Positions 4,461-21,225 of a stretch of DNA of 24,356 nt are shown piece by piece. The notes beneath the pieces are model-generated. The model made no database searches. It saw only the letters and a program-made list of their open reading frames with translations, and had not been told where the DNA came from. The stretch covers positions 1 to 24,356 of the forward strand of contig JACPHL010000019.1 in the NCBI GenBank assembly GCA_016188625.1. The letters are read 5' to 3'. The stretch comes from Candidatus Rokuibacteriota bacterium. GTDB lineage: Bacteria; Methylomirabilota; Methylomirabilia; Rokubacteriales; JACPHL01. Both the position numbers and the translations under genes were made by a program. Each line of letters starts with the position of its first letter. The stretch's first letter is position 1.

Positions 4461-5471
4461 ATGATGCGCTTCGGGATCTTCTCGGTGGTGGACCACTACC
4501 CGGCCGAGCTCAGGCGGAGCGCCGGGGAGTTCTACGCGGAGCTGCTCGAGCAGGTGGAGGCGGCCGAGGAGCTCGGCTACGACTCCTTCTGGATCGCCGA
4601 GCACCACTTCCACGAGTACGGCGCCATCCCCTCGCCGCCCGTCTGGATGGCCGCGGCGGCCGGGCGGACGCGGCGGATCCGGCTCGGGGTCGCCGTGAGC
4701 GTCCTCCCCTTCCGGAACCCGCTCCTGGTGGCCGAGGAGTACGCCATGGTGGACGTGCTCTCGGGGGGGCGGCTCAACTTCGGGGCGGGCTCGGGGTACC
4801 TCAAGCACGAGTTCGAGGGGTTCGGGGTCTCGCCCGAGGAGAAGCGGGAGCGCTTCGATGAGGCGCTGGCGATCATCCGGAAGGCGTGGACCGGGGAGCG
4901 CTTCTCCCACGACGGGCGCTTTCACCGGGTCCGGGACGTGGCGATCCAGGTCACGCCGGTCCAGCGCCCCCACCCGCCGATCTGGGTGGCGATCCTCCGG
5001 AACGAGGCCGCCCCCTTCGTCGCCAAGAACGGCTACCCGCTCATGATGATCCCCTACGCGACCACCGAGCAGCTCGACGAGCTGGCCCGGACGGTCTCGG
5101 CCTTCAAGGCCGCCTACCGCGAGGCCGGGCACGGCGACCCCGAGACCCTCGCCCTGGCCTTCGGCCTCCACGCCTACGTGGCCGAGGGGTTCGCCGAGGC
5201 GACGGCCCAGGCGCGGGAGGCGATGGACCGCTACGTCCGGACGCGCCTCTACGCCAAGCAGCGCCCCTACGGCGCGTTGGTGGAGAAGTCGCTGATCGCC
5301 TACGGGAGCCCGGAGGAGGTGATCCGGGTCTTCCGGCGCTACGAGGCGTGCGGGTTCACCCTGGCCCTGCCGATCCTGAACTTCGGCGGGCTCCCCCAGA
5401 AGCTCGTCCTTCGCTCCATGGAGCGCCTCGCCCGCGAGGTCCTCCCCGCCTTTGACTCGGAGGGGGGCTAA
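4461..5471 (+). CDS. LLM class flavin-dependent oxidoreductase (luciferase-like)
   Basis: The 336-residue TIM-barrel protein carries the hallmarks of bacterial luciferase-like monooxygenases: FGIFSVVDHYP at the start, the acidic/His strand DSFWIAEHHFHEYG, RIRLGVAVSVLPFRNPLLVAEEYA, DVLSGGRLNFGAGSGY, and QRPHPPIWVAILRNE. It would use reduced FMN or F420 to oxygenate or oxidise an organic substrate. It begins 10 nt after the dioxygenase, so the two are probably co-translated. Its role in the cluster is probably an upstream hydroxylation or side-chain oxidation of an aromatic, but this is inferred from position only. ATG codons at 4461 and 4464 are both possible starts. The last codons and the TAA stop lie inside a dispersed hairpin repeat, giving the terminal residues Ser-Glu-Gly-Gly. 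Confidence 0.88.
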   Translation: MMRFGIFSVVDHYPAELRRSAGEFYAELLEQVEAAEELGYDSFWIAEHHFHEYGAIPSPPVWMAAAAGRTRRIRLGVAVSVLPFRNPLLVAEEYAMVDVLSGGRLNFGAGSGYLKHEFEGFGVSPEEKRERFDEALAIIRKAWTGERFSHDGRFHRVRDVAIQVTPVQRPHPPIWVAILRNEAAPFVAKNGYPLMMIPYATTEQLDELARTVSAFKAAYREAGHGDPETLALAFGLHAYVAEGFAEATAQAREAMDRYVRTRLYAKQRPYGALVEKSLIAYGSPEEVIRVFRRYEACGFTLALPILNFGGLPQKLVLRSMERLAREVLPAFDSEGG

Positions 5472-5484
5472 CGCCCCCCTTCCG
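5458..5484 (+). repeat. GC hairpin module of the dispersed repeat family, overlapping a stop codon
   Basis: AGGGGGGC (5461-5468) pairs perfectly with GCCCCCCT (5473-5480) around a TAAC loop that contains the LLM gene's stop codon. Only two T residues follow, so it is a poor intrinsic terminator, though it could stall or protect mRNA 3' ends. A near-identical hairpin in the opposite orientation occurs at 8880-8905. Confidence 0.7.
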
Positions 5485-5502
5485 AACCTCCCCCCTGGGC
5501 GA

Positions 5503-5519
5503 CGGCGGCAAAGCCGCCG
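5503..5519. repeat. Small GC inverted repeat
   Basis: CGGCGGC (5503-5509) and GCCGCCG (5513-5519) flank an AAA loop, giving a 7-bp stem between two coding regions that face each other. No T tract follows on either strand. Confidence 0.45.
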
Positions 5520-5531
5520 CTCGAAGCGGAC

Positions 5532-5598
5532 CGGTCAAGAGCGTTGCGCCAAGATCACCGCGCCGCGGAGCGTGTGGAGCGAGGGGCTGATGCCTCCC
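5532..5598 (+). repeat. Dispersed repeat, copy A (33-bp and 34-bp modules fused)
   Basis: Bases 5532-5564 are an exact inverted copy of 9116-9148. Bases 5565-5598 match 8916-8949 in inverted orientation with one or two changes. In copy B these two modules are separated by about 165 bp; here they are joined at a shared CGCGCC, as if the middle had been deleted between short direct repeats. It lies in the gap between two convergent genes and encodes nothing recognisable. Confidence 0.85.
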
Positions 5599-8486: not shown

Positions 8487-8873
8487 ATGGCGAACCCGAC
8501 GGTGGACGAGCAGATGGAGCTGGAGGAGTTCATCGAGGAGGAGGAAGAGCCCCGAAGCCGCCCGTGGGGGGCGATCCTCTCGGTGGTCCTCGCCTTCCTG
8601 GTGCTGGTGGTGGGCTATCAGTGGCACCAGGCCTCGGCGCGCGAGCAGGATCTCCGGCTCGAGCTCCAGACCCTCCGGCAGGAGGCGGAGACCCTACGCC
8701 TCCAGGCCGTGGAGGTCCAGCAGCAGCTGGAGGTCTTCAAGCGGCAGGTCGCCACGCTCGGCCAGGAGAAGGCGGGGCTCGAGAAGAGGCTGGTCGCCGC
8801 CGAGGAGCGCGCGAGCAAGGCGCTGGCCGCCGCCGCGACCCAGAGGAAGGCGCCCCCGGCCCGCCGCCGCTAA
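8487..8873 (+). CDS. Single-pass membrane protein with coiled coil, function unknown
   Basis: The 128-residue protein has a very acidic N-terminus (residues ~7-22, EQMELEEFIEEEEE), one membrane helix (about 28-46, GAILSVVLAFLVLVVGY) and a long heptad-patterned helix (about 50-120, rich in Leu, Glu, Gln and Arg), ending in a basic RKAPPARRR tail. The topology is that of small bitopic scaffold proteins with a coiled coil on one side of the inner membrane. A good ribosome binding site and promoter lie immediately upstream. No family is recognised. Confidence 0.8.
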   Translation: MANPTVDEQMELEEFIEEEEEPRSRPWGAILSVVLAFLVLVVGYQWHQASAREQDLRLELQTLRQEAETLRLQAVEVQQQLEVFKRQVATLGQEKAGLEKRLVAAEERASKALAAAATQRKAPPARRR

Positions 8874-8879
8874 GTCACT

Positions 8880-8905
8880 CGGAAGGGGGCGCTATCCCCC
8901 CTCCG
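8880..8905. repeat. GC hairpin module of the dispersed repeat (inverted copy)
   Basis: GGGGG and CCCCC arms flank a short CGCTAT loop. Read on the minus strand it nearly matches the hairpin at 5458-5484 and again puts a stop codon (TAG, 8892-8894) in the loop, ending the extended hisC frame. It lies between convergent genes (8487 + and hisC -), where it could act as a weak two-way transcription barrier; no T tract is present. Confidence 0.65.
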
Positions 8906-10067
8906 GGCCCCCGACGGGAGGCGTCAGCCCCTCGCTCCACACGCTCCGCGGCGCGCCCGCCAGTGGCTCGCCGGGCGGGGCCCCTCCTCTCCGCCTTTCG
9001 CCCGCCTGTCGGCTTCCCCACCCGGCTCGCTCACGGCGGGCACCCGCGCCGCTCCGCTTAACGTTCCGCTCGGGGCCGACGCCTCCCCGGCGGGTCCCGG
9101 CCGCCGAAAGGGGCTGGCGCGGTGATCTTGGCGCAACGCTCTTGACCGCGACCACGAAGTTGGCCTCGCTGGGCACCCAGCCCAGGCCGCGCCGGGCGAA
9201 CTCGCCGTAGAGGAAGCGCCGCTCCTCGAAGACCAGGGCCCGCGTCCGCTCGCGGTGGGCGACGTCCCCGAGCGCCGCCCGGGCGGCGGCCTGGGCCAGG
9301 CGGTTTACGTTGAACGGCTCGCGGAGCCGCCCCAGGGTCTCGATCACGCGCGGCGCCCCCACCGCGTAGCCGATCCGGAGCCCGGCCAGCCCCGCGATCT
9401 TCGAGAAGGTGCGCAGCACGACCAGGGTAGGACGGCGGGCGAGGGCCTCGAGGCCGTCCGGGCAATCGTCCGTCTCGACGAAGTCCCGATAGGCCTCGTC
9501 GAGGAGCACGACGACCTCCCCGGGGAGCGCCCCGAGGAACGCCTCCCACGCCGCCCGGCCCACGACGGTGCCGGTCGGGTTGTGGGGGCTCCCCACGAAG
9601 ACGAGCTTCGTGCGGGGCGTGACGCGACCGGCCAGGTCCTCGAGGTCGATCCGGTAGTCGCGGAGCGGGCTCCAGACCACCGCGCCGCCCATCTGCCGGG
9701 CCGCCGACTCGTAGGGCTCGAAGGCGGGACGGGGGATGACGACCTCGTCCCCGGGATCCACGAGGGCGCGGACCAGGAGCCCGATCAGCTCGTCGGCGCC
9801 GTTGCCGAGGAGGATCGCCCCCGGCGTCACCCCCAGCGCCGTCGCGAGGGCCTCCCGGAGGGCGACCGCCCCGCCGTCGGGGTAGAGGTGGACCCGCTCC
9901 ACCTCGGCGCGGATCGCCTGGAGGGCGAGGGGCGAGGGCCCGAGGGGGTTCTCGTTGGCCGACAGGCGCACCACGGGCCGTCCGAGCTCCGCCTCGAGCC
10001 GCTCGAGCGGGGGGCCGGCGTCGTAGGGGGTGAGATGGGCGAGCGCGGGCCGCCACCGGGGTTCCAT
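8892..10067 (-). CDS. hisC: Histidinol-phosphate aminotransferase with replaced C-terminus (probably defective)
   Basis: Residues 1-308 are a clear HisC, a PLP-dependent aminotransferase converting imidazole acetol phosphate and glutamate to histidinol phosphate. Visible are LSANENPLGPSP, NGADELIGLL, FVGSPHNPTGT, LLDEAYRDF and the Schiff-base Lys223 in RTFSKIAGLAGLRIGYA. After SEANFVVAV the expected last ~45-50 residues, including the conserved Arg that binds the substrate acid group (usually LRVTVGT-like), are absent. The frame instead runs for ~82 residues through the dispersed repeat 8885-9148 and stops in its hairpin. The foreign tail is Arg/Gly/Pro-rich and looks like translated noncoding DNA. 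The enzyme is therefore predicted to be damaged unless the join is an assembly error. Confidence 0.85.
   Translation of the reverse strand: MEPRWRPALAHLTPYDAGPPLERLEAELGRPVVRLSANENPLGPSPLALQAIRAEVERVHLYPDGGAVALREALATALGVTPGAILLGNGADELIGLLVRALVDPGDEVVIPRPAFEPYESAARQMGGAVVWSPLRDYRIDLEDLAGRVTPRTKLVFVGSPHNPTGTVVGRAAWEAFLGALPGEVVVLLDEAYRDFVETDDCPDGLEALARRPTLVVLRTFSKIAGLAGLRIGYAVGAPRVIETLGRLREPFNVNRLAQAAARAALGDVAHRERTRALVFEERRFLYGEFARRGLGWVPSEANFVVAVKSVAPRSPRQPLSAAGTRRGGVGPERNVKRSGAGARRERAGWGSRQAGERRRGGAPPGEPLAGAPRSVWSEGLTPPVGGPEGG
8916..9148 (-). repeat. Dispersed repeat, copy B (full-length, MITE-like inverted ends)
   Basis: This is the longest copy. 9116-9148 equals the 33-bp module of copy A, inverted. 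9042-9087 is the 46-bp module shared with copy C, and 8916-8949 is the 34-bp module of copy A. The section 8916-9087 (172 bp) has imperfect inverted ends: GGGAGGCGTC at 8916-8925 and GACGCCTCCC at 9078-9087, with about 17 of 20 matching when extended. No transposase frame lies inside, so it resembles a nonautonomous mobile element or a large structured intergenic repeat. Confidence 0.8.
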
Positions 10068-20887: not shown

Positions 20888-20892
20888 CGCCA

Positions 20893-21093
20893 AATTCCCC
20901 GCCGCTACCGTGTGCCCCGGCGTTTTCGAACCTGGATGATCCAGGTGGGCGCTATGTAGGAGGGCTTTAGGCTTCCCCTTCTAGGAGGGGCCTGCACACC
21001 ACCCTCGCACTCAAGCCCCCTTGTCGTTTCGATTGAGGCTCGAAACTTACCCTGACATCACGCGTAGCCGCAGGGAAGCTCGATCCCGAACCT
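20893..21093 (-). ncRNA. ssrS: 6S RNA (SsrS-like) gene
   Basis: Downstream of zapA, the classic 6S locus, a transcript of about 200 nt is framed by its own promoter and terminator. Its ends form a long closing stem: TTCCCTGCGGCTAC near 21078-21065 pairs with GTAGCGGCGGGGAA near 20908-20895. The span between the stem ends is about 184 nt, close to the 184 nt of E. coli 6S. The 3' half resembles E. coli: GAAGCCTAAAG corresponds to GAAGCCTTAAA, and the CACCTGGATCATCCAGG hairpin corresponds to the E. coli CACCTTGAACC hairpin. A GTTTCGA/TCGAAAC hairpin lies in the 5' half. 6S RNA mimics an open promoter and binds sigma70 RNA polymerase. Confidence 0.8.
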
Positions 21094-21160: not shown

Positions 21161-21206
21161 GGGAGGCGTCGGCCCCGAGCGGAACGTTAAGCGGAGCGGC
21201 GCGGGT
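21161..21206 (+). repeat. Dispersed repeat, copy C (46-bp module only)
   Basis: These 46 bases are an exact inverted match to 9042-9087 of copy B. The other modules and the second inverted end are not found nearby. It lies about 20 bp beyond the zapA stop codon and just upstream of the 6S promoter. Confidence 0.85.
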
Positions 21207-21225
21207 CCCCGCGAAGAAAAACGCC

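Follow-up and report, generated by a model that had tools for sequence, protein, structure and literature searches.

The question raised by this locus is how a short repeat without a transposase gene, present in full at positions 8916-9087 of the window (the whole stretch of DNA that was analysed, 24,356 nucleotides), has come to be dispersed through its genome. The sequence-only reading had treated four modules as one unit with further copies in the window. Our analyses redrew that unit: the segment 8916-9087 is a discrete element, but neither the GC hairpin at about 8876-8908 nor the 34-bp module at 9113-9147 belongs to it, both being repeats in their own right, and the modules that recur in the window do so in copies A and C, which are solo ends only. 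The features are as follows.

8916..9087, minus strand: copy B, the element at its full length of 172 bp; it is imperfectly palindromic, and its minus-strand sequence folds into a single long hairpin.
9042..9087, minus strand: left end of the element (the 46-bp module of the earlier reading), with 61 genome-wide matches to the left-end core.
8916..8949, minus strand: right end of the element, with 78 genome-wide matches to the right-end core.
5560..5598, plus strand: copy A, a solo right end of the element; the right-end module recurs, once, in the window.
21161..21212, plus strand: copy C, a solo left end of the element; the left-end module recurs, once, in the window.
8876..8908, plus strand: terminator-like GC hairpin 3' of the stop codon of the ORF at 8487-8873; a separate repeat.
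9113..9147, minus strand: separate 34-bp repeat module (GGTCAAGAGCGTTGCGCCAAGATCACCGCG), outside the element.
5455..5562, plus strand: terminator-like hairpin, second hairpin and 34-bp module 5' of copy A, belonging to other repeat families.

The covariance model match to copy B spanned 8913-9091 on the minus strand (E 2e-18), and the imperfect inverted repeats said to bound 8916-9087 were confirmed (GGGAGGCGTC / GACGCCTCCC, about 16 bp including mismatches). Of the element, copy A retains just the final ~38 bp, joined to modules of other repeats, and copy C just the initial ~50 bp. Modules of 29, 26 and 30 bases each occurred exactly twice in the window, with none expected from 100 shuffles. 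The hairpin of the 8876-8908 type was found near 34 of 62 element copies; both it and the 34-bp module often adjoin the element and are also found without it.

Several observations concern the surroundings of these copies. Many stop codons in the source genome are followed by a terminator-like GC hairpin (ACTCGGAGGGGGGCT...), then by a second hairpin (GTTGCGCCGGCAAAGCCGGCGCTCGAAGCGGACC), which is present in genome G044 too, and then by more modules. Copy C sits 80 bp from a 6S RNA gene (window 20892-21079, minus strand; Rfam RF00013, 95 bits). At copy B, the PF00155 match of a hisC-like class I/II aminotransferase gene (window 8892-10067, minus strand) stops at profile position 307 of 361, breaking off exactly where the repeat modules start, and the open frame continues across the element; about 12 bases (CGGTCAAGAGCG) are common to the gene and a repeat module. 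Either the gene has truly lost its 3' end or the sequence was misjoined here.

The source assembly (G000) is a MAG of a Rokuibacteriota-type lineage, comprising 2.6 Mb in 344 contigs at 84% completeness. The earlier claim of a real, high-copy repeat held: a genome-wide search allowing up to 2 mismatches found 61 left-end and 78 right-end matches, and the reversed control patterns of both ends gave none. A profile search of fetched stretches, amounting to ~11% of the genome and picked around matches, returned 89 matches, of which some 60 were complete or almost so. The true copy number is probably higher, because many contigs end within a copy. Mean pairwise identity among 52 copies was 89%, and the flanks beyond the element ends were mostly unrelated between copies. 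Partial copies took the form of truncations at contig ends, solo ends and a recurrent 52-bp form, found in several places, that consists of the two ends fused directly, without the interior. The possibility that solo-end copies form a loop enclosing a gene was rejected, as the solo right ends examined were deletion relics.

Searched at the DNA level, other genera of the order yielded diverged matches, and the named records with the core pattern were Candidatus Rokuibacteriota MAGs. The compared genomes all came from outside the source's own genus and family. From 19 homologues in other genera, whose rows omit the variable middle of the hairpin, and 6 own copies we made an alignment with joined arms (A1) and built from it a covariance model (R1). 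This model matched 9 of 60 genomes of the order, the source genome included, and, outside the order, 6 of 7 genomes of one genus (family f8); G083 had 14 matches and G072, which is nearly complete, had 11. With loop motifs and layout in common with the element, the f8 copies are clear homologues. Unit length is 172 bp in the source and about 175-245 bp in relatives. Groups of f8 copies (loci L189-L208) additionally have common inverted flanks of ~75 nt per side (e.g., GAGCCGGCGAGGGAAGC...), and given these flanks the f8 repeat is embedded in a larger mosaic. The plasmids, phages and viral contigs searched contained no match to the element. The earlier remark that no named family with this sequence was known was borne out by Rfam, where none of 4227 covariance models matched even at E up to 5-10, and the open-access literature searched yielded no report of such repeats in Rokubacteria or Methylomirabilis.

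Every copy folds into a single long hairpin in which paired blocks alternate with purine-rich internal loops, for example GAGCGAGC opposite GCGAGCGAG, which, from their sequence, could form tandem G-A pairs. Folding copies and looking for covariation had been proposed as a check, and base pairs do covary across genera. In A1, whose structure was taken from one member and whose fraction of paired cells is thereby biased upward, 41 of 67 pairs had changed on both sides, as against 26.7 ± 2.2 in shuffled alignments and 14-22 in slid controls, and the covariation score was 0.227 against 0.103. The outer arms of the relatives differ between copies, yet each pairs with its own partner (mean -49.1 kcal/mol, versus -34.5 kcal/mol for swapped arms), and 0 of 50,000 permutations were as good. 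Homologues across the class retain the interior fold. The apex of the hairpin in the order is hypervariable in sequence and nearly fixed in length, at 63-67 nt or, for one subfamily, 35 nt. Of the earlier proposal of a structured RNA, the conserved fold and covariation stand, but single-stranded DNA would fit them too.

The two strands of the hairpin proved to be unequal. For the polarity analysis, helices were defined without G-U pairs and retained only if present on both strands. Deviating cells in the G000 copies comprised 85 G-U and 13 A-C, and the corresponding ratios were 28:0 in copies lying with the neighbouring genes and 15:1 in copies lying against them. Polarity is similar in the two settings, and thus the constraint tracks the element's own strand. 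Selection via the neighbouring mRNA was rejected, the strand bias being independent of gene direction. When distinct states in G000 were counted, pairs of the G-U plus purine type outnumbered those of the A-C plus pyrimidine type by 19:3 among shared states and by 15:12 among private ones (p 0.03 for G000 alone). The pattern was repeated in f8 (shared 25:10, private 32:29), and the pooled counts were 44:13 and 47:41 (p 0.005); states at one pair are not independent in these counts, and private changes may include assembly errors. We read the polarity as a constraint on the lineages that multiply, with inserted copies left to drift.

These observations lead us to think it somewhat probable that the repeat is a non-autonomous dispersed hairpin element that is propagated as a folded single strand and is ERIC- or REPIN-like in behaviour. 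One defined strand of the imperfect palindrome forms a long hairpin, with internal loops that are purine-rich and conserved, and under such a mechanism an enzyme supplied in trans would recognise this folded strand, as single-stranded DNA or RNA. The enzyme would then place the strand in gaps between genes, in many cases next to other hairpins. After insertion, copies would drift, and further ones would come solely from lineages in which the strand has kept its ability to fold. Complementary flanks in G000 are not explained by insertion into pre-existing hairpins alone, a reading rejected because flank pairing was barely above that of swapped flanks.

Alternatively, the element could be a functional non-coding or cis-acting RNA kept by the host, such as an mRNA-processing or termination hairpin, with its spread a by-product. 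The conserved fold and covariation are consistent with this, as is placement: among 41 own copies with a gene on both sides (called by a simple codon-usage script), 28 lay between codirectional genes and 11 between convergent genes, and only 2 of 41 between divergent genes. Orientation to the genes was nevertheless random, with 14 of the codirectional copies lying with the genes and 14 against them (8 with and 9 against in f8 and G002), and the favoured strand was the element's own, not the transcribed one. The lack of strand bias in private changes and the patchy presence in 9 of 60 genomes of the order also speak against a host-kept RNA.

Copies at the same gap in different genomes bear on this explanation from both sides. 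Three gaps are occupied in several genera of the order, namely ftsW-murC, aminotransferase-glycosyltransferase and the gap before an acyl-CoA dehydrogenase. The presence of copies within the ftsW-murC gap, and hairpin arms that, compared between genera gap by gap, are 76-98% identical despite greater divergence of the loops and the adjacent intergenic DNA, would suit a host RNA, and the arm identity leaves room for some constraint on resident copies. Against this, G-U and A-C differences at the common gaps were even (42 to 54). Double changes there preserved pairing only moderately often. In the core tree, common gaps carried different subfamilies in different genomes, which undercuts simple vertical descent with compensation: the G028 copy in the murC gap grouped with the G037 copy in the acyl-CoA dehydrogenase gap (93/97), and the G028 copy in the glycosyltransferase gap with another G039 copy (99/93). 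Within the ftsW-murC gap, the copy of G039 lies in inverted orientation. Copies that arrived repeatedly or were replaced account for these gaps better than plain inheritance does. Solo right ends adjoin full copies at some of the gaps and may recombine with newcomer copies. Taken together, we regard a host-kept RNA as unlikely.

The sequence-only reading had also raised a MITE. Classically, this would be an insertion sequence reduced by deletion, whose terminal inverted repeats are bound by a DDE transposase that moves it as double-stranded DNA; insertion sequences are the presumed source of prokaryotic MITEs and can mobilise them in trans (PMC10969869). The element resembles such MITEs (e.g., Correia/NEMIS and QMITE) in being short, with inverted ends and no coding gene, and in that it would give a hairpin transcript. 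Its many copies and the 52-bp forms, internally deleted with both ends retained, fit as well, and the earlier observation that no transposase lies inside the element was correct. The MITE reading was not borne out, however. Direct repeats of 2-12 bp were no better than with swapped flanks across 48 copies, so that no target duplication of this size was seen, and no autonomous copy or parent insertion sequence was found. The stretches read contained no insertion sequence or transposase gene at or between matching ends, in a MAG that is incomplete and breaks at copies. A transposase recognising only the ends would, moreover, need neither conserved internal loops nor a strand-polarised fold, and would not account for an interior fold kept by homologues across a class. 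A double-stranded MITE is hence less likely than the folded-strand hairpin, and we consider it distinctly improbable.

The REP-like family suggested earlier fared no better, failing on tag and stem size. In REPs, a GTAG or CGTC tag is left unpaired beside a stem of 5-13 bp (GTAG) or 8-9 bp (CGTC) (PMC3733652). The element has no GTAG tag, its CGTC lies solely within the paired terminal stem, and the hairpin spans the whole element; its stems are far longer than 5-13 bp and its unit is 172 bp, compared with 20-40 bp. A REP or REPIN repeat moved by a RAYT tyrosine transposase would share with the element a hairpin dimer-like layout, intergenic placement mostly between convergent and codirectional genes, solo ends, the lack of target duplication, strand polarity and long persistence. 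The enzyme does not follow the element, however. Y1 transposases were absent from seven carriers (G000, G002, G025, G039, G044, G059 and G069), although these MAGs are incomplete and the absence is not final, and none of 17 Y1 loci in carrier genomes had a copy or end module nearby. Within the order, the presence of Y1 was uncorrelated with that of the element (3 of 9 carriers versus 8 of 51 others, p 0.34). We therefore consider movement by RAYT to be extremely improbable.

A further alternative is an RNA-mediated, bacterial SINE-like element, in which the element's own promoter would drive transcription of the fixed strand and a reverse transcriptase would return the transcript to DNA. Tolerance of G-U on one strand only, whatever the gene direction, and the conserved unpaired purines would be expected of such an element. 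Polarity does not tell RNA from DNA, because G-T is likewise the better mismatch in folded DNA, and reverse transcriptase (PF00078) was absent from G000 and 10 other carriers, of 15. This makes the RNA-mediated route very unlikely. Reverse transcriptase and IS110 were each rejected as the mobiliser, neither having a positive association with the element. In a phylum-wide survey, IS110-type transposases were in fact depleted in carrier genomes (3 of 15 versus 52 of 80, p 0.002, uncorrected for kinship), and this depletion may reflect only kinship.

Returning to the folded-strand hairpin element, the closest known system in anatomy, copy number and lack of its own transposase is ERIC, as compared by description. 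ERIC is present in 30 to 711 copies per genome (PMC10969869). Both are imperfect palindromes of similar size, intergenic and present in tens to hundreds of copies. The element differs from ERIC in its lineage, its very high GC content, its larger hairpin and its conserved internal loops. We also entertain, as a doubtful extension, a class-wide hairpin that multiplies via its own folded strand of fixed polarity, perhaps as RNA, using an enzyme unlike RAYT, IS110 and the tested reverse transcriptases. If true, this would in effect make it a bacterial SINE analogue, or else a transposon substrate of a new, single-stranded kind.

Most of the extragenic palindromes known from bacteria are short and are linked either with a single enzyme or with none at all. 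The element described here is large, and its fold with conserved internal loops has been kept across a class of uncultured bacteria. The comparison of shared with private pair changes, combined with identification of the G-U-tolerant strand, offers a simple way of distinguishing selection for propagation from a host function. Should the polarity hold, it would indicate an enzyme acting on a folded single strand. In these bacteria, copies of the element also explain why draft genomes break at such sites.
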